DNA of 64,000 nucleotides from Coptis chinensis (Eukaryota > Streptophyta > Magnoliopsida > Ranunculales > Ranunculaceae), in assembly GCA_015680905.1 (NCBI GenBank), contig CM027384.1:73627501-73691500 (forward strand), in the 5' to 3' direction. Below, piece after piece: positions 9,550-45,044 of the stretch; position 1 is the stretch's first letter; the number at the start of each line of letters is the position of its first letter. The notes under the pieces are model-generated. The model saw only the letters and a list, made by a program, of their open reading frames with translations, ran no database searches and was not told the origin of the DNA. Made by a program: the position numbers and the translations under genes.

Positions 9550-9559
9550 CGAAGGTGCC

Positions 9560-10218: not shown

Positions 10219-10803
10219 TGTTGTGAATAATTAACTGCGGAAACAACGTTACCCACACCAAACGGATCAATCCTACACAAAGATTGATCTTTCTCAATAG
10301 ACAAGACTTCAACACCCTCCAAGCAATATCCCAACACTTCTCAATATCAAATAACAAGCATATGAAATAAAACAATCAATGTAAAAGAAGAACAAACCAC
10401 AAGGCGAGATATATGGTGGTTCGGCAATTTTGCCTACTTCCACACCGCGAGTTCCAAGCTTTACTAGATGTCGAGATGGCGATTACAAGTCTCTCTCAAT
10501 TCACTCACAAAGAATGAACACTCAACTCACAAAGAATTGTTCTCTTGTAATCACTCTCTTTCTTGGTTTTGGAAAAGTTAGTTTTTCAAAAAAAGCGATT
10601 TTGTTTTTATACCAAAAACCAAAAATGCATGATTCTTTGTGCGAGGCCCGAAAAAGACTGGAAGGCTGGCGCGGCCCGGTGTTAAAGTCATGGCCATGGC
10701 GGGCGCTTTTCTTTGGGGCATCTAAATCAACGGAGTAGTGGCCGAGTCGGCGCTTCACTCGGCCTTGGTAGCGCTCGGCCGTGAAAAATGAATTTTCTCT
10801 ACA
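10219..10803 (-). repeat. left LTR of the Copia element (3' LTR by element orientation)
   Basis: The 585 bp repeat starts TGTTGTGAATAATTAA on the plus strand and ends TTTTCTCTACA. It aligns along its length with 15064-15663. The adjoining purine-rich tract is on the minus strand, just inside position 10804. Confidence 0.9.
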
Positions 10804-15063: not shown

Positions 15064-15663
15064 TGTTGTGAATAATTAAGCTGCGGAAACAACGTTACCC
15101 ACACCAAACGGATCAATCCTACACAAAGATTGATCTTTCTCGATAGACAAGACTTGACACCCTCCAAGCAATATCCCAACACTTCCGATATCAAATAACA
15201 AGCATATGAAATAAAACAATCAATGTAAAAGAAGAACAAACCACAAGGCGAGATATATATGCGTGGTTCGACGAATTTGCCTACTTCCACATTCGCGAGT
15301 TCCAAGCTTTACTAGATGTCCCGATGGCGATTACAAGTCTCTCTCAATTCACTCACAAAGAATGAACACTTTCAACTCACAAAAATTGTTCTCTTGTAAT
15401 CACTCTTTTCTTGGTTTTGGAAAAGTTAGTTTTTCCAAAAAAAGCTGATTTTGTTTTATACCAAAAACCAAAAATCGCGATTCTTGTAATGGAGGCCCGA
15501 GAAAAAACTGAAGGGTTACTCTGGCCTTGCGCCATACGTATTAAAGTCATGGCCTTGGTAGCGCTTCTTTGAGCTTGGCTAAATCAAATCGGAGTAGTGG
15601 CCTGAAGTCGCCGCCACTGAAGCTTGGCGCGGCTCGGCCGTGAAAAACGAAATTTTCTCTACA
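15064..15663 (-). repeat. right LTR of the Copia element (5' LTR by element orientation)
   Basis: The 600 bp repeat pairs with 10219-10803. Inside it, at about 15048-15063, lies the initiator-Met primer-binding site. Differences from the other LTR cluster in the GC-richer half (about 15480-15650). Confidence 0.9.
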
Positions 15664-16719
15664 CTTTGTTTTCATCTTGCTTGGGCTGATCAATGGAGCT
15701 CAGTTACAAAAACCAAACTTACCTCCTTCTCCACCAAAGCTTCCGATTATTGGAAACCTTCACCAGCTAAGCACACTTGTACATAGGTCTCTTCGAGATC
15801 TGTCAGACAAGTATGGCCCCATTATGCTCCTGCACTTTGGTGGTTCACCAACTCTTGTAGTTTCATCCAAAGAGTGGCCAAAAGTGATTATGAAGACTTG
15901 TGACATTACCTTTGCAAACAGACCTCACACCACTGCAACCAAGTTATTTTTTTATGGTTCGCACACCGTATGGTGAATATTGGAGACAAGTAAGAAAGAT
16001 TTCTGTATTTGAACTCTAGAGTATCAAGAGGGTGCAGTCCTTCAGTTTCATAAGGGAAGAAGAAATCACCAATATGATCGAAAAGATATCTTGTTCGTGT
16101 TCAAAGGGAGCTACAATCAACTTAAGCGACATGTTGCTTGGTCTGTCCAATGACAGTCTCGAGCGAGGTGCGCTCTTGGCAGGAAACATGAAAAAAAAAG
16201 CGGTAAAAACAAATTCGGAGACTTGTCCCGCGAATTGGAGCACCTTTTGGGAGCTTTTGGCTTTGGAGATTTTTGTTTCCGTGGTTGGGATGGATGGACG
16301 CACTACTCACTGGCTTGATTGGGAGGATTAAGAAGGTTTCAAGAGACTTGGATACTTTCTTGGACCAAATCATCAGCGGCATGTGAAGCCAATGAAACAG
16401 GACGGTTCAGTCGACAAAAGTGATTTTGTGGATATTTTACTCTATGTTCAAAAGAACAATATCCTGGACTCCAAATTCATCCAAGAGAACATCAAAGCAT
16501 TAATAGTGGTACGGTATCTTTCTACCCTGGTTTTCTCCCTCTTTTATGCTTCTGACAAGGTTTTTGTATTTCTAACAATGCATATAGTCAAACATCTCAA
16601 CTTTCTTTTTTGGTCACTCTAGAAATTAATCATTACTAATAGGTTGTTTCTCCTTTACAGGACATGTTTGTCGGTGGAACTGATACAACATCAACAACCA
16701 TACAATGGGCAATTGTCGA

Positions 16720-16960
16720 AAGGAAAGTAGGTGGAATGAGGTACTTCTAGTAATGGTGTACTTTGAATAGATTTGGTGTTAGGCTTGAGGCCTTAGAACT
16801 TGTGTTTTTGTCGAACCTCTTTCTAATGACTATACTCTTAGGGAAGGTATGTATGAGGATGATACCTCAGGAACTCCATATGTAACAAGTTGATTATCAA
16901 TAAAACAGGTGGGGTCAGCCTTAACCCCAGCTTAACTTTTCAAAAAAAAAAAAAAAAAAA
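16720..16960 (+). mobile_element. 5'-truncated poly(A) retroelement (LINE 3' end) in P450 A1 exon 2
   Basis: A comparison with A2 shows about 240 extra bases between GGGCAATTGTCGA and TCCGAACATT. The insert ends in a run of about 19 A (16942-16960), preceded by a 3'-UTR-like stretch with AATAAAAC. Its left end encodes a few residues (KVGGMRYF, stop) like the end of a LINE ORF2. No target duplication is visible. About 10 bases of the host exon present in A2 are missing at the junction, so the insertion came with a small target deletion. Confidence 0.75.
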
Positions 16961-17521
16961 TCCGAACATTATAAAAGAAGTGCAGGAGGAAGCAAGAAGA
17001 GTGATGGTAAGAAACATAAGCTGGATGAAGAGGACATTCAAGAAATGAACTACTTAAAATCTATTGTGAAAGAGACTCAGAGAATATATCCCCCACTTCC
17101 TTTATTGGTTCCCCGCGAGTCCTCTACAGCCACTAACTTGAAAGGCTACCGTGTCCCCTCCAAAACAAGAGTCTATATCAACACGTGGGCAATTCAAAGG
17201 GATCGGGAAGTTTGGAACAACCCAAAGGAGTTCGAGTTCAGTCCAGAGAGATTTTGCAGTGACAATATAGTTGATCTTGAAGGCCAAGACTATGAATACT
17301 TTCCCTTTAGCTCCGGAAGAAGGGGTTGCCCTGGGATGTCACTTGGCCTGGTCGTCAGTGAGATTGTCATTGCAAACCTTTTATACTGGTTTGATTGGGA
17401 GTTGCCTGGTGGTGCCAACAAGGAGGACCTAGACATGACTGAATATTTCGGGCTTGTTGTGACTAAGAAGATTCCTCTTCATCTTGTTCCCACATGTCAT
17501 TGTTTTCAGGTAACTTGCTAA

Positions 17522-17824
17522 TAATGCGCACTATATATATATATTACTGTACTATGTTCTGAACTGCAATTGGAGTAGCTTTGATCTTTGGTATTTGTTA
17601 AACAATAAAACCAAATGAAAACAAAAATTTAAGCAAAACTGTAAAACACAAGAAAACAAGCACTGAAGAAAGGCAACTACAAAACAAGATCAATTACAAT
17701 TTTGTACTAATTTAATTACTAAAACTTAATAGAGCAACAACTCTCTTATGGTTCTTGGGTGTAATATGTTCTTATACTGGTACAACACAGTGACACAAGA
17801 AGTAATGATGATCTCTTATGTTTG
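17522..17824. other. conserved spacer between convergent P450 genes A1 and B1
   Basis: This is the downstream region of A1. About 17580-17745 closely matches 45280-45440 behind A2, with shared words such as ATTTAAGCAAAACTGT, AACACAAGAAAACAA and TAGAGCAACAA. It extends the segmental duplication past the A gene. A short (TA)n tract lies at about 17530-17542. Confidence 0.75.
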
Positions 17825-19367: not shown

Positions 19368-19942
19368 TGTTTGGGTGATAACTCACACAAACACACCAAT
19401 GATCTTGTTGGAGAGGTTGATAGAGAGTGAAAGAGACTGTACCACCAATGGCTGCCTACGTATCCAAATTGTTCTCTGGAATCAAGTCTCAAAAATGCAT
19501 GTAGTTCTTTGTTTGAAATTATTGTTGAGTATTTATAGGAATCTTATTGCTTAAAATACCATTTCCTTATTTGATGAGATATTTTCCTCTTTGTATGAAA
19601 TCTTTTCCAAAGCTTCATATGGAAAAAATCCCTTGACATATCTCCGGACCTGCTATATATAACTTGGGTACCATATTAGTGGGCAGTGTCATTGCTCCAA
19701 TAGGAGGCATGCCCAAATGCCACACTAGTAGGCAAGCGGAACTGCCACAGTAGCAGGCAAGCAAGCCTGCCTCACTAGTAGGCAAGCGATGCCACAGTAG
19801 CGGGCAAACAAGCACGCCTCACTAGTAGGCAAGCGGGACTGCCACAGTAGTGGGCAAGCAAGCACACCTCATTAGTGGGCGGCTCTTATAGTAGTACCCA
19901 ATGATGGTCGTTCGTAGGGGTATGAGTACACTGGTACATACA
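19368..19942 (-). repeat. left LTR of the Tat element
   Basis: The 575 bp repeat starts TGTTTGGGTGATAAC and ends GGTACATACA on the plus strand. It contains internal tandem units of about 50 bp with CACTAGTAGGCAAGCG and GCCACAGTAGCGGGCAAG. The other LTR has the same units. Confidence 0.9.
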
Positions 19943-20204
19943 CCACCCCCTCTTCGTCGGATGGAATTCATTCCTTGCGGCGAAGAATAAACATAAATGT
20001 TCTTGCAAAAAGAATGGAGCGATTGTGATTGAAATATCTGCGATGCAAGTGCATGACAAAGGCGATAGTAGCAACCCCGCTTGGCATGACATCCGGTAAT
20101 GCTACTTTGTGGTATTGATGCCAAAAAGTCGTGGAGTGGGCAAAGCAAGCCGCCTCATTAATTGGGCTCTCTTATAGTAGTACCCAATGATGGTCGTTCG
20201 TAGG

Positions 20205-20697
20205 GGTACAACTTTTTGGTGCATGGAGAGAGGTGTTGAAAACGCAAATCCCATGACTTTTTGGTGCATGGAGAGGTGTTGAAAACGCAAACTCCACAAC
20301 TTTCTGGTGCATGAGGCAAGATGTTGCATACGCAAACCCCACGACTTCTTGATGCATAGAGTAAGGTTTTGCAAGCGCAAAACTCCACGACTTTTTGATG
20401 CGTAGAGTAAGGTTTTGCAAACGCAAACTCCACGATTTTTTGATGCGTGGAGTAAGATTTTGCAAACGCAACCTCCACGACTTTTTGATGCGTGGAGTAG
20501 GGTTTTGCAAACGCAACCTCCACGACGTTGTGATGCGTGGAGTAGGATTTTGCAAATGCAAACTCCACAACTTTTTGATGCGTGGAGTAGGGTTTGCAAA
20601 CGCAAACTCCACGACTTTTTGATGCGTGGAGTAGGGTTTTGCAAACGCAAACTCCATGACTTTTTGATGCGTGGAGTAAAGTTTTGCAAACGCAAAC
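20205..20697. repeat. 44 bp tandem array, each unit a hairpin (left part)
   Basis: About 11 units of 43-45 bp stand in a row. A typical unit has CTCCACGAC, a T run, GATGCGTGGAG and then a TTTTGCAAACGCAAA link. CTCCACG pairs with CGTGGAG, so each unit can fold. The array continues for about 1.5 units at 24193-24260, beyond the inserted solo-LTR-like element. It lies between the coding part and the 3' LTR of the Tat element, where such arrays are common in this lineage. The long apparent ORFs here are only the periodic text read through. Confidence 0.9.
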
Positions 20698-23600
20698 TGT
20701 CACACCCCGAATTTCGACAGAATTCGGAAAAACATTATTGTTCCCGACTCTTCGATCTCCGAGGTGTGACGCACTCTCAACTCCCAAAAACCCATAAACA
20801 GTTTAAATATGCGGATAAATAAAAACCAATAAAAATTTTAACTTAAACAAAAGTCATCTTCATTACGAAAATTAACAAATGAAAATACAAATAACTTTGT
20901 CTCAACTGAAAAACTATATCACCTCAAAGGAAAACAAAGCCTATCTTGAAAAGCGACGCTAACGCAAACCACGAGCAGCAACCAATCTTCTTCCACACTA
21001 AACCTGTCAAGACTTATCAACTGTGTTCATTTAATGAACACACCCGATAAGCAAACATGCAAATCGGGTCAGCATTATAAAAATGCTGGTGTGAGTAGCC
21101 CTAAAATACAACATATACTTATACCAATATATACACAAACCATATGGCAGTTAGTTCCTCCACCGAGGCACCTTAACTTTCCACGACTAATACAACATCT
21201 TTAAGTTCAATAACTAAGGCAGGTAGTTCCTCTCCTGAGGCGCCTTAACTTCCAACAACTAATACAACATACCCTACGCATAATAAAAAGGCATTTAGTT
21301 CCTCCACGAGGCGCCTTAGGTTCTAACTAAACTACTAACCAGCCAAACATATACAATCATCTATCTAGAAATATATCATTTACCAACATATTACCATAAT
21401 TATATTAGTTTAGACTTTCTTTGCGTGTCCCTAAAATTCACGTCGTATCTATGTCTTACCTAGTTTCCCTGGCTACCACAATCGCTACCCAACGCCGAAC
21501 ATGTACATCCACATGCCTCCCCTTATATAATGTACCACTCCGTGCGTAACCACCCTGAGCGAGATGCCGCACACCAGGTAAATCCTCACACGGAAGCCAT
21601 TATATAAGTAATGCCCCTATTCGGCATAAAATATCGCGTGTCTCGTTCCAATATTTGCGAACGGAATAATCAAGCCACTATTCGGCTACGATTGCCAACA
21701 CATGGGTCAATCAACATCTTATATATACAACATCTTATATATCACATAATGCCACACAGTAGGATCATATGAGTTGTGGTAGTCAGGTTCTAGGATTTTC
21801 GTTACGTAATTTATTCAGGTGTCATACATTAATGACTCACAATCATTCCACTATATCACGTGCAGGTTAATTATCTTATTGCACTAAGCCACAATATTTA
21901 GAAATATCTTAATTATATCTCATAACCAATTTCATTCTTTCACGTGCCAATATATTATTGCACTACACCACACTCCCGTGGGCAAATATTCCTCAATACT
22001 ATACTACCTCATCACATATATAATAATGGAGCGGTGATACATTTATTTCTCCAAAACTATTGCATTTAATATATACATCCCAATATATCATATGATATCA
22101 CAATTGCTTCAAACGTATCGCATATATTTTTATAGCGTATTAGGAATATAATGTCTCATAACATCTCAATATCGTCACGTGTCAAAAATACACAACATCA
22201 ATGTCAAATCTTTCTTAGATAATGACAACCAAATTTATACAAGCTTCCACAATATTTTATTACTACCGTTGTCCATATAATATACAACATAAAACGTAGC
22301 ACAATTAAACAGTCCCCCACAATCAAAGCCCAATATATATGTTTTACACACTACTCACGTCAAACGTAATTAGATGGTGAGAAACAACGTTATATAATGT
22401 TCGACAATATTTTATTATTATAATAGTCCATAAAATCAAATATGAGAAAAACTGGAAAAAAGTCAACATTCCACAGTCAACGGTCAAAGTCAAAGTCAAC
22501 ATGTCATGGTCAAAGTCAAACTGGCAGGGTCAAATTCAAAGTCCAATGTCAACGGTCAATGGTCAAAGTCAAAGTCAACACATCATGGTCAACATGTCAT
22601 GGTCAAAGTCAACATGCCATGGTCAAAGGTCAAAGTCAAAGTCCAAAGTCAAACTATCGTTTTCATGTTCGACTGGTTCAGGGTCATAGCCATGGTTCAT
22701 GGCTAAGGTCAATGTGCATGGCTCATGGGCTCATGACTAAGGTAATGGTTCGGACCCAACTGGCCAAACCCAAACCTTAGAACCCGAAAGTCTAAAAGTT
22801 GGAAGACCCATTTAGATCTATTTTAAGTCCTATGGACTGGCCCAAGCAATATTAGAAACTGGCCCAAAATAGTTAAGTGGTTCGGTCCAAAAATAACTAA
22901 TGTGGTCCGGCCCAAAACAACTTAAACTAAAAGAGCTCAAACAAAACAAATAAAAGGTTGGCCCAAACAGAAAATTTGGATTTCGGCCCACATAAAATTA
23001 GAGCTTTTGGCCCAACCAAACAACCAAGGTTTTGGCCCAGGCCCAATTCGGTCAACAGTGCATCTTCTCCAACTGCCACCACCGGATCGACCACCGTCGA
23101 CCTCCACTCGACCACCCAATCAAACCCACCGATTTTAATCCTCCTACAAACCCCTACCACTTTAATAAAACCAAAAATCTCAAATCCTTAAATCTCGATT
23201 TACCCAAAACTAGATCTGTAAAGAATTTCGGACCGCCATTAATGGTTGCTCCAAGCTCTCCATCAACATTCACGCTTCCTCACTACCCCCATTCATCAAT
23301 CAACCAACCCACAACAACCCAACATTCATTCATCCATCTTCAATCAACAACAAAACAACAAAAACAATAAAAATCAAATTACTGGAGGACGTCTGGGCGT
23401 TACTGGTCGCCACCATGGATGAATTTTCCGAGCTTCAAACCGCCCCAACAGCACTTACTCAAACCCCCACTCACCTCCAACAATACAAACCCACCACAAA
23501 TCGAAACATCACAACAAAAATTAAATCAAAACAACAGGATTTTGCTCTCTTTTTATTGTCTCTGGGCGACGCCATTTGTCTTGAAACAAAGACCGTCCAA

Positions 23601-24192
23601 ACTTCCACCAACATCGACCCACTATTCCCATACCACCACGGTATCCGCAAAGATTTCAATACAGAGAAAGATTCACTGCTTTGAGGCTTTAGCCGCCATT
23701 AACAGCCCCGTAAGAGTTTCGACAGTTTAACCAATTTTAACAAAGTTTCGACAGTCTATATCAAATCCGAATTCACTCGAGTTTTAACAACTCGACAACA
23801 CGACGTCGAATCAAAACAATATAATGAACAGTAAAAATAGAAACATTAAACAGTATACCGATATGCGAAAAACTATAAATCCGATGAAATAGCCAAATAG
23901 CTACTCACCAGATTCACAAATCCTACTTAATCCTCCCAAAAATCGTCAAACCACCCTCCAAAGAAACGAGCTTCTAGCTCTGCCTCCATTTTTATTATTT
24001 TTATTATCTTAAAAACCCTATTCTCTAGAAAAATGTGTTTATATACTTGGGTCTGAAACCCAAGCCCAACACAGACTCGGGCCCAGAAACCAGGCCCACA
24101 TGTCCCGAGTCCAATCCGACCGATTTTTAAATAAATAAATTTAATTAATTAATAAATAGATAAAAACGTATTTTAAAAATACGGGCGTTACA
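20698..24192 (-). mobile_element. solo-LTR-like element, 3.5 kb, inserted in the Tat tandem array
   Basis: The ends are TGTCACACCCCGAATTTCG and GGGCGTTACA, and the 5 bp target duplication CAAAC lies at 20693-20697 and 24193-24197. The ends resemble those of Tekay/Del chromovirus LTRs. No gag-pol part is seen. On the minus strand a TATA-like AGTATATAAACAC lies near 24040, followed by sequence that could be transcribed. This suggests a single long LTR in minus orientation rather than a complete element. A non-autonomous derivative is also possible. Confidence 0.75.
22464..22655. repeat. GTCAA-rich cluster inside the solo-LTR-like element
   Basis: About 20 copies of GTCAA occur in roughly 190 bases, mostly as GGTCAAAGTCAA with interspersed CATGG words. 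On the other strand each reads TTGAC, the core of the W-box bound by WRKY factors. The repeat makes three overlapping pseudo-ORFs on the plus strand with no protein-like content. A binding role is only inferred. Confidence 0.7.
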
Positions 24193-24243
24193 CAAACTCC
24201 ATGACTTTTTGATGCGTGGAGTAAGGTGTCGTAAACGCAACCT

Positions 24244-27200
24244 TCACGACTTTGAATTTGTATAGGCCTTGAACCCAAAACGAACTGAGCGCTTAATGGT
24301 TGATTTATCTGGCTTAATAAAAACACATCCTAATCCAAAGCCGGATTTGTTGTGTGAGCCATCCGTGTAAACAATCCATGAATCGGATGAAGGGTCATTA
24401 TGTTTTGGCAAGGCTTCCTCGCCCCCAACTATAGCCATTTCGCTATAGATATCGTTATCTTGGTTGACTTCGAGGACAAAATTGTCGATAGGGAAATCTG
24501 CCATTAGGGATCCAAGTGTATGACCCTTTTCTGAAATGCGAGATTCAAAATTGATGCTATACGCACTTAAGTAGATATCCCATTCCGTGAGTCTACTTGA
24601 TTCCTGGGCACTTCGAAAAACTTTGCGTAGAGGATATTCCGTGTATACTTTGATCAGTCTTTCTTGGAAATACGGCTTGAGGCGTCTGGCAGCATGAACT
24701 AATGCTAGAGCAATTTTTTCAATTCTCGAATATCTGCTTTCCGCCCCCGTTAGTGTTTTACTAGTGAAGAAGATCGGACGACCGTCTTCTCCATTGATGA
24801 ATAGGATTGCACTTACTGCAATATCTGTAGCGGCCAAGTAAGCTCTAACAGGTTGCCCTGTAGCTGGGCTGGCTAAGATTGGTGGCGAGACCAAGTAGTT
24901 CTTAATTGATTGAAATGCATTTTCACAATCATCATTCCACCTTGCTGAGTCTTTTAACGTCTGAAAGAAAGGATGACACCGGTCCGAGTATTTAGAGATG
25001 AAACGATTTAGTGCTACTAAGCGCCCTGTGAGCTGTTGAATCTCCTTTTTTGTTTTTGGAGAGGGCATGGCTTGAATGGATCGGATTTGTTATGGGTTAG
25101 CTTCGATGCCTCAACGAGTCATCAAATACCCTAGAAATTTTCGTGATATTATTCCGAAAGCACATTTCAAAGGATTTAGCCGCATGTTGAATTCGTTAAT
25201 TATGTCAAAAACTGATTGTAAGTCAGAGATGTGATCGCCACTGTGCTTGGATTTTACAACCATGTCATCAATGTAAGCCTCCATTGTCTTGCCCAACATA
25301 TCTCCGAATATGGTGTTGATCATCCTCTAGTACGTAGCCCCTGCATTTTTTAAACCGAAAGGCATAACTTGGTAACAAAAAATCCCTTGGTCAGTGATGA
25401 ATGCAGTTGCTTCTTGGTCTTTAACAGCTAGCGGGATCTGGTGGTATCCTGAATACACATCTATAAATGATAAGCGTGGGTAGCCAGACGTGGCATCTAC
25501 CAATTCCGATATTCATGGAAAAGGGTAGGGATGAATCGGGCAAGCTTTGTTAAGATTCGTGAAATCAATGCACACTCTCATTTTACCATCTTTCTTGGGC
25601 ACTGCAACCACGTTAGACAACCACTGCGGATATGAAACTAGTCGTATGAACTGAGTTGAGAGTAACCGATCAATTTCCTCTCTGACTTTGAGTTTTCTAT
25701 CCGAAGCCATGCGCCTAGGCTTCTGCCGAACTAGCTTGATGGTAAGATCTATGTCAAGTGTGTGGCATGCAACTTTTGGGCTGATTCCAAGCATCTGCTC
25801 GACTGACCAAGCAAAGATCTTTTTGTTCTTTCTGAGGAGTGCTACCATTTCTTTTTGTTCATTTTCCGTTAGTTCTGCCGATATGAAAGTTGTTTCTCCG
25901 CCTAAATTTCCAATTTGAACTTCTAAGAGGCGGTCCTTCATTTTTTCAACTAGTAGTATAAATACTAGTGCGTGATTGATCCTGATTTAGACACTACTTG
26001 TGAATTACTGAGAATTATATTTCCCCGTATATCCGACTGACGATATTCCTCCAAGACTTTTTTGTGACAGCTGTAGGAATCCATCTGGTCGCCGTGCATC
26101 TTATAAATTTTGTCAAGAGATGGGAATTTTACTGCCTGGTGAAAAGTAGAGACTACTGTGCCCATGCTGTGGAGCCATTCTCTTCCTAGGATTGCATTGT
26201 AAGAGGACTTGCAATTCATCAGGAGGAATTCAATGTTGATGGACTTGTCTATGAGCGTGACTGGTAGAGAGATTCTTCCTACTGGGGTTGTTGCGGTTCC
26301 ATCAAATCCAATGATTGGAGTATTTTCTGCAATAATTAAATTTTCTAACAGCTGCATATTCTTGTAGCAACCTGCAAAAATGACGCTGACAGAACTTCTA
26401 GTATCTATCATGATGCGCTAAACTCGCCATAATCCAATGAAAGCTGAGATGACGACAGCATCATAATGAGGATGATGGACGTTAATTAGATCTCTATCAC
26501 TAAAACATAGGGGACCAGGCTCTGTGGTTTCTGAACGAATTTCTTCAACAAAATCAATGTTATTGACGTGATAAAATTCCCGCAATAAACCAAACTTGGC
26601 TCGTTGTTCACACTTTTGCCTTGTTCGTGAAACATCATTGATTTTGGCATGACCAGCTAGTATGACATTGTGGCTAGTCATTGCTACATTTTGCTTCACA
26701 ATTTTTGAAAGCACAAACTCATCTAATTGTCCCTTGTCGACTAGCCTCTGTATTTTTCCCTTGAGGGATCTGCACTCTCCTGTTTCATGGCCGAAATCAT
26801 TGTGGAAGTGACACCAAAGATTTTTGTCACGTGTAGACTTAGTGTTTTCAGGCAAGGGTAGCGAAGGAAAAAGTAAGTTGCATCCCTTGATCTTTTCATA
26901 TATCGCATCGTACTTGGCATATAATGGAGTGAGCTTCATTTCCTCACGAACTGTGTTAACCTTGTTGTATTCTAACTTCTATTGTGGCCCTTTCCGATAT
27001 GTTCTGCTTCTATTTGCCTTTACCTTCGTTTGAGTCTTTACTCCGAAAGTCTTTGTCTCTTAAGGCTTTTGATCTAACATCTTCCTCTACATTAATGAAC
27101 TGCTGCATTCGTGCAAACAAATCGGATTTTGATTGTGGGGGGTCCTGTACAAGGGAGTTGTAAAATTCGTTTTTATTGAAATGGACTCCTTCCTTGAATG

Positions 27201-28268
27201 CATGAATGATCATTACGTCAAGGACATCGGTGACCTCTGCTTGCACTTGGTGGAAAAGAATTACGAACTTTGCCAATGCTTCATCATTTTGCTGCTTGGT
27301 GTTAAGCAAGATGTTGACATCCTTAGGACGTGTCCAATTATGCTTAAACCGATCTGTGAACTGGTTTGCTAATTCCTGAAATGACGCAATAGATTGAGCT
27401 GGCAAGCTGGAAAGCCAATGTAGAGCTTCTCCTTTTAACGTAGACGGAAAAAGTTTGCACAAGAGGGGCCCCATCTTTGCGCCATAGAATTACCCTGCTT
27501 TTAAACTCTATAACATGATCGTTCGGGTCTCCTCCTGCTTCGTTGAACGTAAAAGGTCTGGTTGTTTGAATCCTTTCTGATGCTCTGCATTTTGTATCTT
27601 TAGGGAAAATCTCCCGACGACATCTTCATTCATTGCAAGGTCTTTCCATCGTGCTTCAGTGATACCCACATTGGTCATTATTTTCTTGATGATGTCTTTG
27701 ATTTGTTGTTCCGTGAATGGTGCACCTGTGGCTTCTAGATTTACGACTTAAGGAGTAATTCACTACGTTGCATCTCACGGTGTTGTCGCCCCCAGTTGTT
27801 GCTTGCTTCTATATTTGGCTGGTTCCTTGGGCTGCGAGACCTATGCCGATAAAACGGGCTAGGATGTCGAACTGGGGACCCATTTCTTTGGTGTCGCCAT
27901 ATTCTGGGATGACCGTCGTTAACCTGTCTGTATCGGTTTGCTGCATTCAAGCCATGTCTAAGGTCATGTTGCAATTCGTCCTTGAGGTCCTGATCTTGGC
28001 GTCCAGCATTGCGTCTTATGGTGGATATTGTCCACCATCCTGGTGCGCTATGATCAACATTCAATGATCTTGCCATGTTATGACCACTTCTACGCCTAGT
28101 GTTGTTGGTATTTCGAGATCTGGATCGTCTTCTTGAGTGGGATGAATGCCTGCTTGACCTTGAGTGATGATGCTCAGGGACAAGCTCCAATGGACGGGAT
28201 GTACCGTAATTAAATTGTAATCGGTTGGATACACTCCGGTTTTCACCGGATCTGGGAGCTCTTGCCAT
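24244..28268 (-). other. coding remains of the Tat element (gag, protease, RT, RNase H)
   Basis: In order on the minus strand come a charged gag start (about 27740-28270), gag body (27010-27475), a finger-bearing gag end (26418-26940), protease (25965-26411), reverse transcriptase (25080-25941), and the RT end, RNase H and second RNase H-like part (24244-25068). The similarity throughout is to Tat-type Ty3/Gypsy polyproteins. It is treated as a fossil. Confidence 0.88.
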
Positions 28269-29256
28269 GTGGAAGATGCAGCATCGGCGTCATTCTTTTG
28301 TACTTGCTTCTCTTTGTCCAGTTGCTTCTACAAGTAGTTGCTATGCTCCTTCTCTCTTCTGAACCTTTGACGCAGTACTTCTAACGGCATGTCTTCACTA
28401 CAAGAAAATTGAGTTTTTGCCACAGGTACAACCTTGTTTTAGCCACAGTCATCAGCTGCTGCCAGGGTCGAACGGCCTATAGCCGTGGCCAAGTTTTTAA
28501 GTGGTCATGGGGTATTGTTTAGGTAGTTGAGTTTTAGTTCCCATTTTGGCCACGGCTGTGTCCATTTGTTTTATCCACCGTTGGATCAAACTTGAATTTT
28601 GATGTCCGTTAAGATCTCATGAAACCCTCATGAAAATAAAGAGGAACCATGAAACAACTATCAAAAATCAAAGAAGAAGACTCGAGTTATTCGAAAGAAA
28701 ACTCGATATTAAAGCAACAACAAGATTTGGCTTCCTTCTCTCTCTCCTCTATAAATAGTACTTCTATTTTATTCACTTCTCTCATCTAACAGAACTTTCC
28801 TCCTCCCCCTCTCTCTGTCTCTCACCCAGGTTGAAGATGGACGAAAAGCATCAATTTTCCTCCCTCACACACTCTCTCTTTCACGCTAGAGTCACGAGGA
28901 CCAGGTTGGATTGCACTCTTATATCTGTTTTTTTTTTTTTACTTATTTTGATGTTAGTTGCTAATTTAGGGTTCCTTGATTTTAATTTTTGTAAGAAAAT
29001 TTTGTTTTTTTTAACACCAATTAACATTACAAAATGTAATTGAGAAAAGTTCACAAGTTCCTTCATATGAAAAGGGTGAATATATAACTGACCGAGTCTC
29101 TCTCTCTCTCTTAAAATCTCCAAAGTACTAAAGATCAGTAATTTCCGACAACTTCATCAAAATTGCTCGATGGGGATACAATCCCACTCCGATCGACTCA
29201 CGCCATAACTCTAACCATATGACACATCATTCTTGAGAAGCAACAAAAGACTCATC

Positions 29257-29945
29257 TTAAGATTGTTCTGAATCTGAAATGACAACCATCTTCTGAATTG
29301 AATCAACATCCCTAGCTTCAGAGAGCGTGTGTGTCAGAAGAGTAACTGCATCCTCGTCTGTAACTCCAAATATCTCTTTGATGATTAAGGAGCTCTCCCT
29401 TGAACAGAATTCTGGCAGCTCATATAGATAAAATATCTTCCCAAAGAGTGCCTGCACAACAAGTTTTCTCTTAAAACCCTTCTCTGAGTATCTTGAAATA
29501 TCCATGACAACTGGACCTTTGTCCCTTACAATTCGTCTTGATATCTCGTTTAGAATTTTAGCAACCTGGGCATCATTCAGCATAGAAGCTTTTCTGAGTT
29601 GGATCAAGTCTGCCAACATGTCTGGGTTGAAGGGTTTTTCATTCATTGCATGGCGAATGTACTTGCGCAAAATTTCCTCCATGCCAAATCCTATCTGCTG
29701 CACAAGTTCCAGTAGAGCTTGATTCTGAACTTGATTTCATCCTTTGAGGAGTAAGTCATCTATGGATTTGCATAAGAAAGCATTTTTGTTTACCAGTTTG
29801 TGTCTCTTAGCCTTTGGTGAATTTGACTTTCTGAGGGTCTTGACAAAGGTAATAATGAAAGTGAGTCCAGCATAAGCCATGGGAACAACTAGGATCCAAG
29901 GGAGAGAGCTCTGACCCCAGACCTCTACAATTGGTTTGGGATATA
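29257..29945 (-). pseudogene. captured fragment of an unidentified helical membrane protein gene
   Basis: On the minus strand an open stretch (29257-29703) encodes about 148 aa ending in DSIQKMVVISDSEQS. It is rich in helices and charged residues (GFGMEEILRKYIRHAMNEK, KIFYLYELPEFCSRESS, EIFGVTDEDAVTLLTHTLSE). Just upstream in the same direction (29740-29945) is a segment with a likely membrane helix, WILVVPMAYAGLTFIITFV, and a basic stretch, RKSNSPKAKRHK, separated by an in-frame TGA. The combination looks like the C-terminal half of a plant membrane protein, perhaps plastid-targeted. I could not name it. It lies within the CACTA element and is unlikely to be expressed as a full gene. Confidence 0.6.
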
Positions 29946-30414
29946 TTCAGTAATCTTCTTTAATCTCACTATTTTGTTTTCTTGTTATCTGCTTTTGATA
30001 GACTAAACCTCATGGCCATGGTGATGTCCATTTGCTTCTTTACTCTAGTGGTCTTCTACGTTTGGTATCGTTACCTTTCATAGAAACGATTCGATTTTCT
30101 TTTTGTTGTTAGAAGTTATTTTTCCTGTTAATAATGTATTAACCTTATTATGTTGATTGATGATGTTTAGATTCATACTAGTCTTAGGTTCCATTTTTAT
30201 ATGGTATTTTTCCTGAGTTGCCTCTAATATGACAAGTTTCATTACTGTCTTAGGCATGATGCAGGATTGAAGTGGGTTCTCTTTTATTAAGATACGAATG
30301 GATTACTCTTCAAGGTTAGATGAATGTGTTGTCATGACATATTTGACTTGAATGATTATCTTATGAGCTTATATGGTTTTTTTAACTTACCACTTCTTTT
30401 GAAATTTTAGTGTT

Positions 30415-31410
30415 GCTTCTTGGTTCCGTTTGAAATACCCCCACATTGCTTTGGCTGCTTGGGCATCTTCTGCTCCTATTTTATACTACCTGGGTGATAC
30501 CAAGGTCAATTAAATTTTGAACCTCAACCAATTCCTTGTATGTAATACCATGTAGGAAACAAGCGTTAACTGTTATGAGACCATAAAGAGAAGCTGGGAC
30601 TTGATCGATGGTATTGGATCCAGCGGCAACGGTTTGAAGGAACTTAGCCAGAAGTTCAAATCTTGCAGGTAATCTTATAAATTACACAAGTATTATGCAT
30701 CAAATACTGTTCTCATTATTTTGTATCTATTCTACTTCCTATGATAATTGCTTTCAATTTGCTGATTTTATTTCTTTTCTTCCTAGCCTTTTGAAGTCAT
30801 CCAAAGAGTTGAAAGATTATCTTCAAAGGAAATATCAAGATGTTTGACAAGACATTATCTTCAATCGGAGGACACCCCAGTGGAAAAGATATGCAGTGTT
30901 ATAGATGCAATGTCTACAAATTCTGATGTTCTTAGCAGAATATTTGCAGGTGTTGTGTTTTAGATTTTTAAAGTTAAATATAAATATGTGTTTTTTCTAA
31001 GACAATCACTATATATAAACTGGTTTCTCAACTTATTATTCTTCGTTCGTTCGCGGATAAAGTTTGGTTTACACTAACAAGTAACAACTCTCTGTGTAGG
31101 AATTGAAGCGATTGAAGGAAATGAACCACCTAAATGTTACCCAATATTAATACTTACGACTTATGCGAGCATATATCAATGGACGTGGCAAGTATCTCAA
31201 GTATACTATCGTCTCAGGCTCTCAGCCATAACATTTTCAGATGGATTTGCTTACCTTATTGTTTGTTGTGATACTTCAGATAGACACGGAGCTGATAGAA
31301 CCAAGTACAACGAGCACTAATGAGACGATGTTCCAGATTCCCAGTGCAAGTTACAGTCAAAAGGAGTATTGTGAAGAACTGTATGGACCTCTCAACCATC
31401 CTGCCTTAGT
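30415..31410 (+). pseudogene. captured fragment of an S28 serine carboxypeptidase (lysosomal Pro-X type)
   Basis: Exon-like pieces, with introns between them, match the S28 peptidase family. At 30415-30505 is [19 protein letters not shown], the stretch just after the active-site serine region. At about 30555-30668 come CYETIKRSWDLIDG and KELSQKFKSC. At 30870-30950 is PVEKICSVIDAMS with SRIFAGV. At 31100-31400 are weaker pieces including QWTWQ and NETMFQ...KEYCEELYG. The order of the pieces is the same as in the protein. The N-terminal part with the nucleophile and the C-terminal catalytic residues are missing or not seen. The gene is non-functional and was moved as genomic DNA. Confidence 0.8.
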
Positions 31411-31449
31411 GTTCATTGAAGCCTGAAAATTTATTGAAAAGTTATAGGA

Positions 31450-32075
<626 letters not shown>

Positions 32076-32232
32076 GTGAGTACCATGGAAAAATGATAGA
32101 AGCTCTAATTTATTTACTTTATAGTCACTCCCTGTTACATCGGTCTCATTCTATGAAAACTTCGGGGTGCTTGTTTCAAAGAGTAGTAATAATAACTAAT
32201 AGAGCTATATAAAGTACAGCTTGAAACTTCAC

Positions 32233-33723
32233 TCATATTGCATTAACAGTGATCTTCATCCCGCACTCACGATGCCCAAGATAATTGAAGATAAAAGAGT
32301 TGGGACCCTTTGCCAATCTGATCCGATCAGTCCCACTCTTAAGCACTTTTGCACCCCTTGGAATCCGGCATGTGTTGTAGCTCCTCGGGTCAACGGCAAC
32401 CACGTTATGGAATGAAGGGTTGTACTTGAAAATTACACCATGAACACACGCTTTAGCATGTATGTGAATTTTAATCTAAATGAGTCAAGACACACAAAAG
32501 AGCATTTTCCGCATGCACGCCCCCGGCGTAAGTTTGATTTCATCTTATTATAATAATAAAATTAAAGTGCTAAAAACAAAAACTAAAATGTTTTTATGTG
32601 AATATGGTCAATATCGCCTTTTTTTAAGGATCAATATTACAACCCGTTGCATTCACCAAGAGCATCCGAATCTTATCTTTGAAGTTGCTACCGAAGCTAT
32701 CTGTAATAACTGTTTCATGTGTAGTCTTAGCATGTTTTAAGGATGTAAGTAATGTATACTACTTGGGATCAAACTCATCTGGGTAGATATTGGGTTCATT
32801 TGTTGACGATATAATAAGAATAAAGAATATCATTTTTCTTTGTCATTTTTGGAATATGATCGGAAAGAGACAATGATCATTTTGAGTGTAAGCAAGGGAC
32901 TTGCTGACATTGTCATTTCCATCAAAGACCTGGAAGAATTCAAGGGATTTTACTCTTTATTAAATATGGAAACATGGTTTGGTCAGGCTAATGGGATTTA
33001 GGGATCCTTACCCTGGCTTTGCCGTTGTTTTGCTTTTCTTAGTCAGTCTGTTTCATCTACTTATGTAATTATCGTTGGTAATCTTTGTTTGAGTTCAACT
33101 GTTTTACATCTTCACATTCACCTTCTGTAGTTCTCTGATTTCCAACAATTAAATTCTCATTTCAGACTTCGAGAGAGCATTGAGGAAGTTAATCGATTAT
33201 TAGAAGCAAAGGAAAATGCTCTTGATGGGTTGCAGAACTCTCTTTTTGAGAAAGAACAGGTTTGGACATTCAAACATCTTTTGAAATACTTTAGGGTTAC
33301 TGCTTCCTGAGAATTTGTGGGTTCATCTTGTTATACAATTATTATCCCCATCACACTACTTATGTGGGATTGTGTCATCAAAGAGTGCTGATTAATGAAG
33401 ACGAACAACAAAAGAAATATATTATTAGTTTTTATGACATATTTCACATATTTTGGCAGGGGACAAACATAATGTCGGGTGGTGCTACAAGTTTTGGGAG
33501 ACTCAGCTGGATCGTTTAGCTACCAAAGATCAAACTTACCAAGTACATCACCAGCCCCGACCTCTTTTCCCAGTAGGCCGACTTTACTGATGTTAAAGGT
33601 CCAACCACGAGCATCTCCAACTGTGTAGATTGCTGCATGAGCAATTTCACAATGAACCAGTAGGACTAGTAGTGTGACTGCAATGGTCACAACATGATTT
33701 GCACTGCCTGTTATTCGCACCAT
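32233..33723 (-). pseudogene. captured plantacyanin (basic blue protein) gene, two exons
   Basis: Exon 1 (33540-33723) encodes a signal peptide (MVRITGSANHVVTIAVTLLV...AHA) and AIYTVGDARGWTFNIS. It ends in GAGDVL at a GTAAGT donor. Exon 2 (about 32233-32443) encodes IFKYNPSFHNVVAVD, YNTCRIPRGAKVLKSGTDR, IRLAKGPNSFIFNYLGH and GMKITVNAI, then TGA. The blue-copper ligand pattern is recognisable (H in HNVV, H in GHRECGM), while the usual cysteine of FICN reads as FIFN. The acceptor before exon 2 lacks AG. This is the opposite strand to the neighbouring captured genes. Plantacyanins are secreted copper proteins. This copy is probably dead. Confidence 0.85.
33167..33259 (+). pseudogene. captured coiled-coil exon, gene not identified
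   Basis: A 93 bp open segment between an AG acceptor and a GT donor encodes LRESIEEVNRLLEAKEN and ALDGLQNSLFEKEQ, a regular heptad-like pattern. It lies inside the intron of the captured plantacyanin, on the other strand. It could come from any long coiled-coil protein. Confidence 0.5.
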
Positions 33724-33796
33724 CTTAAGAAAAACAATAACTATAAGTGAAAGATGAAAACTGAGAAACTTGAGGTTTTGTGGTGATGGACTTCAA

Positions 33797-34019
33797 CTGA
33801 GGAGATCAGCATGCTCCGCCAGGTGCTCTGTCATTTAACGTTACATAACTTATTTTCACATTTTGTTCAAGATGAGATGATTGACACACGCGGTGTTCTG
33901 TGATGTTTGGTTTGGCTAGCTGTTCAGATTGTTGTCGATTGCCCTAGGACTGTACCTGATGTTACTTTCTTTCAGCAATTGGAGGTTCATAAATCCTTGG
34001 AACGAATTCTATATACGTG
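33797..34019 (+). pseudogene. captured fragment of a TBC-domain Rab GTPase-activating protein
   Basis: Two exon-like pieces are present. The first, at about 33797-33832, ends in EEISMLRQ before a GT donor. The second, 33928-34019, lies behind a TTCAG acceptor and encodes VVDCPRTVPDVTFFQQ and VHKSLERILYTW. That text is diagnostic of plant TBC1D22-like Rab-GAPs. The catalytic R and Q fingers are not covered. It lies near the right end of the CACTA element. Confidence 0.82.
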
Positions 34020-35275
34020 GTGAGTTCCTTTACATGATTATATGGGATAATTAAATGTATACTATTATGTAGACCTTTAGGCATTTAAAAGAATACTATT
34101 ACGATGTAGACTTTGGCAGGGATTAATTAGAACAACATTCCATATGTAATGGTTAGTACTTTCTCCTTCATTTGATATTTGCTATATTAGATGATTTTCA
34201 TTTCTAATGATTGCTTTTAAATATTGTAGAAATATCTTCAAAGCCTACTCTAAGGCAGGATCATGAAGAGGTACAAATGAGGAATATCGTCTATCGAGTT
34301 TAGGCACTATATCTCGATGATGTTTTCATTTTTCTTAAAAGTCATTCTAAATAGTGTTTAAATTTTTAAAAGTGTTATATTTGTTCTTTTATGTAAGTTA
34401 GGATACCTAATGGGATCTATGTTGTAAAAAAAACTTATGCCAAGTACATATTGAGTATGAAATATTGAATTGTGGATAATTAAGATTCTTGTGGGTTTGA
34501 TTGGAATGATAGAATTTTGTATGAACTGCAGTGATCGCGAATTGTATGAATTTTGTGCGGTGTTAGAATCAATTTTTTTATCCAACAAAAGACATTTTCC
34601 ACGGCCATAAACTGTGGCGAAATTTTAGATACACTCCATTAAAGACATTTGCCACGGCCTAAACCTGTTGCCAAATTATAGATCCCAAATCCACAAAGAC
34701 ATTGGGCACGGGTCGTGTGAGGAATGGCTACGGTTTAGTGCTGTGGCAAAAGGAGACATTGACCACGGCCCTTGTAACGGTTTATATCCGTGGCCAAAAA
34801 TGAAGCTATACCTACGGTCTTTAGATGTGGCCAAAGATTAGCCACAAGTGCATTGGCTACGGTCCTGCAACAGCTATAAGCCGTGGCTAAAGGTCTTTTG
34901 CCACAGCTCATGACCGTGGCGAATACTCGATATTCTTGTAGTGCTTCATCTCCTATCTCCATATTTTCCGGATCTACTTCGTTTGCATTTGTAACATCTA
35001 GATCTTGAAGGTGAGTTACTGGAGCCTGAGATGGCAGACGTCTAGATCTGGGTTGTCATGGCACTTGGAGTTGAAAAGGTTGATCTTGCAGATTTGTTGC
35101 AGCAGGTTGTTCTATCACCTCTTGATTGATTACTACTTCCGGATTTTCGTCTTGTTGTTGTTGTGTTCTTGCATTCTTGTTCGCCTGAGACCTTGTAGTT
35201 TTTGCCATTAATGGTGTTTGGAAGAAGGAACGTGGAAGAAGGCCCGTCAATAAGGACCACGGACGGCGCCAATTA

Positions 35276-35849
35276 TGTTTGGGTGATAACTCACACAAAC
35301 ACACCAATGATCTTGTTGGAGAGGTTGATAGAGAGTGAAAGAGACTATACCACCAATGACTACCTACGTATCTAAATTGTTCTCTGGAATCAAGTCTCAA
35401 AAATGCACGTAGTTCTTTGTTTGAAATGATTGTTGGGTATTTATAGGAATCTTATTGCTTAAAATACCCTTTCCTTATTTGATGAGATATTTTTCTCTTT
35501 GTATGAAATCTTTTCCAAAGCTTCATATGGAAAAAATCCCTTGACATATCTCCGGACCTGCTATATATAACTTGGTGCCATATTAGTGGGCAGTGTCATT
35601 GCTCCAATAGGGGGCATGCCCGAATGCCACACTAGTAGGCAAGCGGGACTGCCACAGTAGCGGGCAAGCAAGCCCGCCTCACTAGTAGGCAAGCGATGCC
35701 ACAGTAGCGGGCAAGCAAGCACGCCTCACTAGTAGGTAAGCGGGACTGCCACAGTAGTGGGCAAGCAAGCACACCTCATTAGTGGGCAGCTCTTATAGTA
35801 GTACCCAATGATGGTCGTTCGTAGGGGTATGAGTACACTAGTACATACA
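35276..35849 (-). repeat. right LTR of the Tat element
   Basis: The 574 bp repeat pairs with 19368-19942. It is directly followed on the right by a copy of the P450 upstream region, starting CTATCTAAATTCT. Confidence 0.9.
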
Positions 35850-36393
35850 CTATCTAAATTCTATTAGTGCAATCATGCTATGGCTGAAAAGGTACCAACA
35901 TGAATGTAGGTCACACGTCGCAACTGTTTCGTGATTATATGGCTTCTGGATGCAGTCACTGAATTAAAAAAAAATATCCCTTTGAACTGCATGTATTTAA
36001 AATAATACTACACCGACCCACTTATTTGACCTACCCAAAAGTCCTAATCATTGATTTATATAGAGATAAGTGTCCGTGTATATTGCAATGCAAACCGACG
36101 TTATCCAAATAATGAGTCGCAATAGTAGGTCTAAAAAGTAGATCCATGTAGCACAACTCTAGTGCTTAAAATATGTAGTTCGATAACCAGGAGGATCAAC
36201 CAATTCTAATAACAAAACCCTTGTGCACGTTAATAGTTTCTGTGAGCTTGGTTGGTGGATCATCTCACAGTGCCTTTCCAAGGCCCATTCATTAAATTGA
36301 GTTATGAGGAATCCTTGTGAGTGCTCTACCCATTATTGGTTGGTAAATGCCCAATCCAATGATGTATGGCCAAAGACAAAATCCTAGTTCACA
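35850..36393 (+). repeat. third copy of the P450 upstream region, without its gene
   Basis: Similarity to 9565-9860 and 42505-43165 starts at the very edge of the Tat LTR (ATCTAAATTCTATTAG). It continues through ACCAACATGAATGTAGG, ATCAACCAATTC and CAAGGCCCATTCATTAAATT. No P450 coding sequence follows. It is either the relic of another array unit or part of the A2 unit, split off by the later gypsy-type insertion. Confidence 0.75.
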
Positions 36394-42494: not shown

Positions 42495-43317
42495 ATGAAG
42501 GTGCCTTCAACAATCTAAATTCTGTTAGTGCTATGGGTGCAAAGGTCCCAACAGGTCACAAGTTTCAATCTGTTTCGGAACTTCGGGATTACTTGGCTTC
42601 TGGATACAGTCACTGGCTTGACCTTCGTTTTTCCTTTAAACTGCATATACGGAAATATGTAGGAAAATCAACCAATTCAAACACGGGAGGGGTTCTATGG
42701 ACATATTTTATCTTGACATTTAAACAAACTCAAAATCGTTAGGGCATTTATAAGTTTCGGATTAGGCTAATATTTTGTAGATATGATCTCCTAACTATTC
42801 TAAACATTATCACAAATAATCAAAAAAATAAAAAATTTATAAACTTGTAAAATATAGTATCAAAAATGATGAAATGAACGGTCTACAATTAGCCAAATTT
42901 TGTAAATTGTTAACTACATTTTGCAAGTTTGGAATTTTTTGATTTTTTTTATTATTTGTGACAATGTTTAGAATAGTTAGGATATCATATCTACAAAATA
43001 TTAGCCTAATCCGAAACTTATAAATGCCCTAACGATTTTGAGTTTGTTTACGTGTCAAGATAAAATATGTCCCTAGAACCCCTCCATTCAAACAAAACCC
43101 TTGTGCGGACATAAATACTGTTGATGAATTTGGTTCGGGGACGAATGCGTTTCCAAGGCCCAAACATGTTATGGGTCGTTTTTAAGAATTTACGCGTTTT
43201 ATACTTATGCAGTTAATCAGTTATGCATGGTACGTACGGATATACACCACACAAGAAAATGAGTAGATCTAGTTCGACTATTAAAACTGAATGTGGTATC
43301 ATCCCTTCACTGTTGAA
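42495..43317 (+). promoter_or_regulatory. upstream region of the intact P450 A2 with MITE insertion
   Basis: This region is homologous to 9560-10106 and 35854-36310. It is interrupted by a MITE at 42684-43085. Between the MITE and the start codon remain about 230 bases, including CCTTGTGCGGACATAAATACTG, whose ATAAATA could serve as a TATA element about 200 bases upstream of the ATG. Promoter function is inferred from position and conservation only. Confidence 0.6.
42684..43085. mobile_element. 402 bp long-arm MITE with 9 bp target duplication (Mutator-like)
   Basis: The arms of about 165 bp are inverted copies, beginning GGAGGGGTTCTATGGACATA at the left and ending TATGTCCCTAGAACCCCTCC at the right. 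The 9 bp duplication ATTCAAACA lies at 42675-42683 and 43086-43094. The paralogous empty site is preserved at 9764-9772. The size of the duplication fits a Mutator-like MITE. The element is non-coding and AT-rich inside. Confidence 0.92.
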
Positions 43318-45044
43318 ATGGCTTTCCCAGCATATCTGTTCAAATGGTTGGCAGAGCAACAACTAAAATATTCTTATCATCTCTTCCCATTCTCACTTCT
43401 GATCTCTTTCTTCGTTTTCATCCTGCTTAGGCTGATCAATGGAGCTTGGTCGCAAAAACCAAACTTACCTCCTTCTCCACCGAAGTATCCAATTATTGGA
43501 AACCTTCACCAGCTAGGCACACTTGTACACAGGTCTCTTCGAGATCTATCGGACAAGTATGGCCCCATTATGCTCCTGCACTTAGGTGGTGCACCAACTC
43601 TTGTTGTTTCATCGAAAGAGTGGGCAAAAGAGATTCTGAAGACTCATGACATTACCTTTGCAAACAGACCTCACACAACTGCAGCTAAGCTACTTTTTTA
43701 TGGTTGCATCGATGGAGCTTTCGCACCCTATGGTGAATATTGGAGACAAGTACGAAAGATTTTTGTGATTGAACTCTTGAGTATCAAGAGGGTGCAGTCC
43801 TTCAGTTTCATAAGGGAAGAAGAAATCACCAATATGATCGAAAAGATATCTCATTTGTGTTCAGAGGGAGCTACAATCAACTTAAGCGAGATGTTGCTTG
43901 GTCTGTCCAATGACATAGTCTCGAGGTGCGTTCTTGGCAGGAAACGTGAAAAAAAGGATGGTGAAAACAAATTTGGAGACTTGTCCCGGGAATTGGTGCA
44001 CCTCTTGGGAGCTTTTAGCTTTGGAGATTTTTTTCCATGGCTGGGATGGATGGACTCACTCACTGGCTTGATTGAGAGGATTAAGAAGGTTTCAAGAGAC
44101 TTGGATACTTTCTTAGACGAAATCATCGATGAGCATGTGAAGCAAATGAAACAGGACGGTTCAGACGACAAAAATGATTTTGTGGATATTCTCCTCCATG
44201 TCCAAAAGAACAATATCCTAGACACCAAATTTACCCGAGAGAACATTAAAGCCTTAGTATTGGTATCTTTGCACCCTGTTTTTCTACCTCTTTTATGCTT
44301 CTGTCAAGGTTTTTATATTAATTATATTTCTAACATTGCATATTTGCATACTGTCAAATGGTCAAACCATCTAAAACTTTCTTTTTTGTTCAAATTAGGC
44401 AGTACTAATCGATTTTTTCTCCTTTACAGGACATGATTGTAGGTGGAACTGATACAACATCAACAACAATAGAATGGGCAATTACCGAGCTAGTAAAAAA
44501 TCCGAACATAATGAAAAACGTGCAGGAGGAAATAAGAAGAGTGACAAGTAAGAAACAGAAGCTGGATGAAGAGGACATTCAACAAATGGACTACTTAAAA
44601 TCTGTCGTGAAAGAGACTCTAAGACTACATCCCCCACTTCCTTTATTGGTTCCACACGAGTCCTCTGCAGCTACTAACTTGAAAGGCTACCATGTCCCCT
44701 CCAAAACAAGAGTCTATATTAACGCGTGGGCAATTCAAAGGGATCCAGAAATGTGGAACAACCCAGAGGAGTTCAGTCCAGAGAGATTTAGCAGTGACAA
44801 TATAGTTGATCTTAAAGGCCAAGACTATGAATACTTCCCCTTTGGCTCCGGAAGAAGGGGTTGCCCTGGGATGTTATTTGGCCTGGCCGTCAGTGAGTTT
44901 GTCATTGCAAACCTTTTATACTGGTTTGATTGGGAGTTGCCTGGTGGTACCAACAAGGAGGACCTAGACATGACTGAATATTTTGGGCTTGTTGTGACTA
45001 AGAAGATTCCTCTTCATCTTGTTCCTACATCTCATTGTTTTTAG
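43318..45044 (+). CDS. cytochrome P450 monooxygenase, CYP71 family (CYP71A-like), copy A2
   Basis: Exon 1 is 43318-44262 and exon 2 is 44430-45044. The intron has a GT donor and a CCTTTACAG acceptor at phase 0, and the protein is 519 aa. An in-frame ATG at 43291 is less likely, because MAFPAYLFKW is conserved in A1 and is followed by the membrane anchor (FPFSLLISFFVFILLRLI). The proline hinge is [17 protein letters not shown]. Further on come SRCVLGRK, the I-helix VGGTDTTSTT, ExxR in KETLRLHP, FSPERF and the haem loop FGSGRRGCPGM with its cysteine ligand. It is an ER-anchored haem monooxygenase that needs a P450 reductase. CYP71 enzymes act in specialised metabolism, and the substrate cannot be told here. 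All key residues are present, so it looks functional. Confidence 0.93.

Follow-up and report, generated by a model that had tools for sequence, protein, structure and literature searches.

Captured host-gene pieces in a CACTA element family of Coptis chinensis, with intermediates of assembly and one piece lacking its donor introns

Introduction

How does a transposon without a transposase of its own come to hold pieces of several unrelated host genes? This question is raised by a CACTA element in a 64,000-nucleotide stretch of the Coptis chinensis genome (GenBank assembly GCA_015680905.1, contig CM027384.1, positions 73,627,501 to 73,691,500). This stretch, hereafter the window, is part of the contig designated C8 in this study, in a genome of 935.6 Mb. 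The element is very probably a non-autonomous one of the Pack-CACTA or Tgm-Express type that grew by successive patches and was presumably spread by transposase supplied in trans. Donor genes and elements from before and after a capture are present in one genome, so that steps of capture are legible at base level.

The manner in which plant DNA transposons capture gene pieces is debated, with tandem fusion set against gap repair. Gap repair is the mechanism that Rubin and Levy reportedly proposed, and Catoni et al. 2019 is said by others to have put forward the tandem-fusion model. Multi-gene mosaics are also spread by Pack-MULEs and gene-carrying Helitrons, which resemble the present family in this respect and have ends and transposases of their own, unlike those of CACTA elements. 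Published passages on Tgm-Express1 of soybean describe a non-autonomous CACTA element of 5.7 kb with fragments of five unrelated host genes, exons and introns included, whose exons enter transcripts (Zabala and Vodkin, PMC1947982). For the Pack-TIRs of animals, passages of a further study present gap-filling and FoSTeST models with unlinked templates and either short microhomology or fillers made de novo; captures of multi-exon genes that lacked the introns were discarded there as a control for retroduplicates (PMC8277862).

Results

The window element has perfect 11-bp CACTA-type ends, CACTACAAGAA from position 28396 and TTCTTGTAGTG up to 34943, and its 28-nt terminal pair forms an imperfect inverted repeat (86% complementary). 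GCCACGG-type words are repeated close to both ends in both orientations, and CTT stands on either side, exactly the limits that a first-pass annotation of the window had proposed. The inverted termini of CACTA/CACTG type, the 3-bp target site duplication (TSD) and the short subterminal repeats place the element among the CACTA transposons. As the same annotation had claimed, it appears to be without a transposase: no such domain was found with Pfam among the 20 element peptides scanned. The host coding DNA that it holds, with identified donors, is the hallmark of a Pack-CACTA element.

A search of the whole genome returned near full-length copies on other chromosomes, with 94-95% identity to the window element, and at least 56 matching stretches, a lower bound because the best 40 of 380 candidates were scored. 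Same-end copies, which the first-pass annotation had suggested looking for, do exist. A matching 3-bp TSD of its own flanks each of the eight copies of the window-element type whose two ends were displayed (CTT, TGT, TTA, ATA, GGT, GAA, TAT and TAT). Their flanks differ, and they are spread over five chromosomes and one small contig. Internal joins are common to the copies for the parts that each keeps (6 to 11 copies aligned per join), and pairwise distances in the 5' part of ten copies range from 0.018 to 0.073. On C7, a left end and a right end that lie 24.6 kb apart are both flanked by GTT; this copy is probably a single element split by an insertion.

A genome search with PF02992 (Transposase_21/TNP2-type) scored the best 150 of 2,715 candidates, and all 150 pass the cut-off; none of these 150 lies near related element ends, as judged by eye without a computed distance. 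A related CACTA element of 5,574 bp (TSD TTT/TTT) was observed at C5:39422410-39427983 (L036, L041); no transposase-like long open reading frame is present inside it.

Seven host-gene pieces are present in the window element (Table 1), and an eighth, from EXO70, occurs in a subfamily. The host genes of the first-pass annotation, at least five by its count, are among them, while the USP piece at 29925-30348 had been missed, and the supposed unidentified membrane protein turned out to be an ARMH5-type armadillo protein (PF22915, E 6e-40 from the window sequence; 80% to an Aquilegia armadillo-like protein). A PDB search with the ARMH5 open reading frame gave no match. USP was identified through a donor composite that matches PDB entries of UDP-sugar pyrophosphorylase (best 1.5e-56). 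In agreement with the earlier assignments, Pfam recognises S28, protein kinase and plastocyanin-like domains in the window sequence; the RabGAP-TBC domain (PF00566) is recognised in the composite of an older copy. The kinase piece fits a CDPK, as far as the kinase domain alone can tell, and is without about 293 bp of its donor, a deletion shared with copy L025. The coiled-coil piece, which we take to be from a candidate plant golgin, has no Pfam match above the curated cut-off.

Six of the seven pieces could be assigned a best donor locus among the scored matches (best 40 of 246 candidates in the CDPK and TBC searches, 40 of 80 in those for ARMH5 and USP). Loci matching in introns or surrounding DNA, on which the capture model had been staked, were found for plantacyanin (C6:3.01M), golgin (C6:15.31M), CDPK (C2:106.14M), TBC (C50) and USP (C4:24.97M). 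S28 has two candidate parents (C2:84.37M and C9:53.17M); the reading frames of both look damaged in the stretches examined, so that neither is more than a candidate. In ten donor stretches of 1.5-9.5 kb each, exact CACTA ends of this type and GCCACGG words are both absent, and one CACTA end with a single mismatch occurs, in the S28 candidate L024. S28-type pieces were also seen at C4:31.69M and C8:64.97M, with 5' ends of type B (the lineage of the right half of the window element) some kilobases off; these two stretches are possibly earlier S28-only elements.

Table 1. Features of the CACTA element in the window.
Feature	Position	Strand	Basis or donor
Non-autonomous CACTA (Pack-CACTA-like) element, 6,548 bp	28396..34943	+	Ends, TSD, copies at 94-95% elsewhere
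Left TSD CTT	28393..28395	.	End alignment
Right TSD CTT	34944..34946	.	End alignment
5' terminal/subterminal region (q1-614), common to many related elements	28396..29009	+	Genome matches
ARMH5-type armadillo gene piece, 3' part, processed	29013..29917	-	Donor C45:131068-133540, exon-only match; Pfam PF22915
UDP-sugar pyrophosphorylase (USP) piece with introns	29925..30348	+	Donor about C4:24973688-24974116 (-), L038
A/B join (left-half A, right-half B element lineages), 2-nt overlap TT	30348..30358	.	Copy alignments
S28 serine carboxypeptidase piece	30358..31388	+	Pfam PF05577; candidate parents C2:84.37M, C9:53.17M
CDPK-type protein kinase piece	31388..32082	+	Pfam PF00069; donor C2:106144202-106145171
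Plantacyanin piece, second exon side	32079..32613	-	Donor C6:3012162-3012693; Pfam PF02298
Golgin-like coiled-coil piece	32612..33431	+	Donor C6:15306101-15306924, 97%
Plantacyanin piece, first exon side	33434..33808	-	Donor C6:3013089-3013467
TBC Rab-GAP piece, 298-bp remnant after overwriting	33798..34095	+	Donor C50:109231-110736; Pfam PF00566 on composite
3' subterminal repeats and terminus	34098..34943	+	Repeat words, genome matches

Comparison with intermediate elements reveals the order of capture, except for that of the golgin patch and the A/B join. Copy L025 (C8:51.81M) is a 5,285-bp element flanked by AAT/AAT that carries S28, CDPK and TBC; it has no plantacyanin match, and its TBC part is colinear with the donor across 1.5 kb (95%). 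Since the TBC donor sequence is uninterrupted there, plantacyanin was acquired later than the S28-CDPK-TBC series. The element at C1:34122208-34154539 (TSD ATG/ATG), grown to 32 kb by sequence absent from other copies, has a 5' end of the L025 type, followed by S28, CDPK, plantacyanin and TBC. Comparison of these two elements shows that about 1,057 bp of the stretch formed by the end of CDPK and TBC gave way to plantacyanin, and the edges of the plantacyanin piece are identical in the window element, its sister copies and the C1:34.12M element.

The plantacyanin piece of the C1:34.12M element keeps its own donor intron in continuous form (96.7% to the donor). In the window element and its sisters, 397 bp of this intron are swapped for 820 bp of the golgin gene (97% to the donor). 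Hence, golgin came later than plantacyanin, given the uninterrupted intron in the C1:34.12M element; what the first-pass annotation described as a coiled-coil exon in the plantacyanin intron is a patch that replaced intron sequence. Copies L017 and L018 contain ARMH5 and USP, have lost their own 5' ends and differ from the window element at their 3' ends. Because USP of L017 runs on beyond the point where the window element switches to S28, the window element is a hybrid whose left half resembles L017 and whose right half resembles the C1:34.12M element.

In the EXO70 subfamily (L010, L011, L012, L013, L014/L015 and L019), EXO70 replaces golgin and plantacyanin intron sequence. L010 has 1,093 bp of EXO70 in place of 116 bp of golgin (q4581-4696, in positions of the window element), and other members lost more; the piece lies at positions 5114-6206 of L010, 2801-3764 of L011 and 3057-4023 of L013. 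The donor, at C6:46626190-46627227, is an EXO70 gene of one exon whose frame is open. Collectively, the successive patches seen in these intermediates bear out the repeated capture that the first-pass annotation had suspected.

At the plantacyanin edges, 4 and 7 nt are shared (P 0.02 and 0.0005 versus random breakpoints), and at the golgin left edge, the A/B join and the S28/CDPK join 2, 2 and 3 nt (P 0.18, 0.18 and 0.07); the random control for the S28/CDPK join drew both points from one sequence, which inflates its mean. A 5-nt overlap, CAATA, considered for the golgin edge was reduced to the stricter 2 nt once more copies were aligned. Unmatched fillers measure about 2 nt at the right edge of golgin, about 8 nt between ARMH5 and USP and 3 nt between TBC and the 3' end, and a local duplication of about 30 bp serves as filler at the left edge of EXO70 in L010. 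This mix of zero to seven shared bases and short fillers fits gap repair by end joining and template switching and does not fit homologous recombination. Microhomology by itself is weak support, and the geometry of replacement is the stronger argument.

Golgin is the piece nearest to its donor in seven of the nine element copies having it, and S28 or USP is the farthest in 10 of 12 copies, with one tie. These distances agree with golgin as a late patch; they do not separate the middle steps.

The ARMH5 piece differs from the others. It consists of six blocks that adjoin in the element and are separated by introns in the donor gene, which is open over these six exon blocks when compared with the Aquilegia protein. 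Five donor introns, which measure about 85, 372, 855, 172 and 80 bp when their borders are placed at GT-AG in the direction of the gene, are precisely absent. The same six blocks are present in L017 and L018. The earlier claim of retained introns is right for the other donor-assigned pieces and wrong for ARMH5, and for this piece the conclusion that capture took place at the DNA level and not through mRNA fails as well: the five precisely missing introns point to a passage through mRNA. We infer that the patch derives from a spliced mRNA, directly or by way of a retrocopy. The 3' end of ARMH5 adjoins a T8 tract on the element strand that is not in the donor. In three sister elements without ARMH5 at this position the flank is common up to a T5 tract, after which the sequences diverge.

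A locus at C6:82480545 was considered as ARMH5 donor on account of one exon (97 versus 96% for C45) and rejected, since all six blocks are found in C45 only. A further ARMH5 exon behind the filler of about 8 nt was not found in 5 kb of the donor, which reads straight through there. Exons of ARMH5-type genes were observed at at least 20 further loci (contigs C1-C6, C8 and C66), with intron spacing where two or more exons are present; these loci may be a gene family or another carrier element.

As to the setting of the element, 576-bp direct repeats at 19368-19943 and 35276-35850 (96.5% identical) enclose it. Taken as long terminal repeats, they would make 19368-35850 a probable retrotransposon housing the CACTA element. 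By reading only, coding sequence beside the element looks gag-like (minus strand). Elsewhere in the window, a cytochrome P450-like gene lies at 43291-45041 (+), with ferruginol synthase as the best PDB match of 43291-44430, and a diverged relative at 9551-17740 is interrupted by an insert between repeats at 10219-10803 and 15064-15663.

Discussion

The history that emerges from these comparisons starts with an S28-CDPK-TBC element of the C8:51.81M type. About 1,057 bp of it were overwritten by plantacyanin DNA and 397 bp of the plantacyanin intron by golgin DNA, and the ARMH5-USP left half of another element was joined to the resulting right half; either of the last two events may have come first. 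The product then spread to at least eight sites, with a new 3-bp duplication at each, and in a subfamily 116 bp of the golgin piece were overwritten by EXO70 DNA. At each patch, a break or gap inside the element may have been filled from an unrelated chromosomal template that shared little sequence with it or none. Gap repair is favored because three captures (plantacyanin, golgin and EXO70) are internal replacements.

Several observations weigh against this scheme. Overlaps at three of the five tested junctions are no longer than chance readily gives, and the donor distances have exceptions (L009 and L013 for golgin, L002 with TBC and L003 with ARMH5 as the farthest piece); those of CDPK, TBC, plantacyanin and ARMH5 overlap, and those of S28 may mislead, its parent having two candidates. 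As part of the candidates was scored in several of the genome searches, a better donor could have been missed. Neither the 150 scored PF02992 matches nor the C5:39.42M element yielded an autonomous partner with matching ends. With respect to ARMH5, five of the eight T pre-exist in the sister elements, so that three are new, and inspection of both edges, made without a computed repeat search and with the USP side overwritten or joined, revealed no TSD around the piece. Template switching and the tandem-insertion fusion model account equally well for the A/B join.

In the fusion model, described in passages on Pack-TYPE elements (PMC8903248, PMC13317346), a gene piece is caught between two neighboring elements whose outer ends are mobilized together and whose inner ends are lost. 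The A/B join at 30348-30358 has this appearance, with the 5' half of one lineage attached to the 3' half of another, and the 3' end of A and the 5' end of B missing. Plantacyanin, golgin and EXO70, however, substitute internal stretches, and their donor stretches contain neither an exact or one-mismatch CACTA end nor a GCCACGG word, which leaves tandem fusion a rather doubtful account. That the mosaic is a functional chimeric gene under selection is most improbable. The Coptis chinensis protein model IFM89_011210 (P0080; annotated 174 aa) appears to have been called over the ARMH5 piece of a C6 copy of the element, probably L002, and Tgm-Express1 pieces are spliced into transcripts according to passages of PMC1947982. 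However, at least one stop is present in the ARMH5 piece of all 13 element copies examined, an internal stretch of CDPK is lost, and TBC is down to 298 bp. We set the functional chimera aside because ARMH5 has no intact frame in these copies; the captured pieces seem to be without coding function now, and IFM89_011210, which skips a stretch of the piece, appears to be a gene model over a pseudogene. An assembly artefact or chance patchwork is hardly conceivable, given eight copies, distributed over five chromosomes and a small contig, whose flanks differ and whose internal joins agree in the parts that they keep.

For the ARMH5 patch, chances are about even that it began as an ordinary retrocopy at another site and entered the element as DNA, in which case every capture in the family would be at the DNA level. 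Wherever a donor is identified for another piece, that piece either retains donor intron sequence or matches the genomic donor DNA without a break, and the filler of about 8 nt beside USP, with no TSD seen, is in keeping with such a route. No free-standing processed ARMH5 copy occurs among the scored matches, however (best 40 of 80 candidates), and the 3' end of the piece adjoins a T5 tract that three sister elements lacking ARMH5 already have at that position. A more tentative possibility is direct capture of RNA, in which spliced ARMH5 mRNA would have been reverse transcribed from the T tract of a CACTA element with a break in it and would have stayed there as a patch.

The class of element is already known from Tgm-Express1 and Pack-CACTA; what stands out here are the intermediates and the spliced piece. 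As far as passages of PMC1947982 allow comparison, Tgm-Express1 is likewise a non-autonomous CACTA element with fragments of several unrelated host genes. Many donors in about 5 kb, as seen in the first-pass annotation, have a close precedent there, and "unusual" was too strong. By the same passages, the Coptis family differs from Tgm-Express1: its pieces come from seven donors, it has at least eight copies, its captures can be ordered through intermediates, and one processed piece is without introns. Pack-CACTA and other Pack-TYPE elements, in passages of PMC8903248, share CACTACAA-type ends, the lack of a transposase, coding DNA from several loci and fusion of parts from related elements; the tandem-insertion model given there leaves the internal replacement patches of the Coptis family unexplained. 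Pack-TIR gap filling resembles the present case in its unlinked templates and its short microhomology or fillers, whereas an intronless capture of a multi-exon gene, of the kind discarded in that study, is present in the Coptis element (passages of PMC8277862). A literature search over titles and abstract openings, largely of non-subscription papers, returned no report of a CACTA element that holds part of a host gene in spliced form.

For the annotation of Coptis chinensis genes, these data mean that one protein model appears to cover a pseudogene piece. For the debate on gene-piece capture, the value of the family lies in three replacement captures whose direction is established, in a hybrid join that could be resolved and in a single spliced piece, the last of which raises the question of RNA templates. 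If direct capture of RNA were true, gap repair in DNA transposons could use RNA as well as DNA templates.

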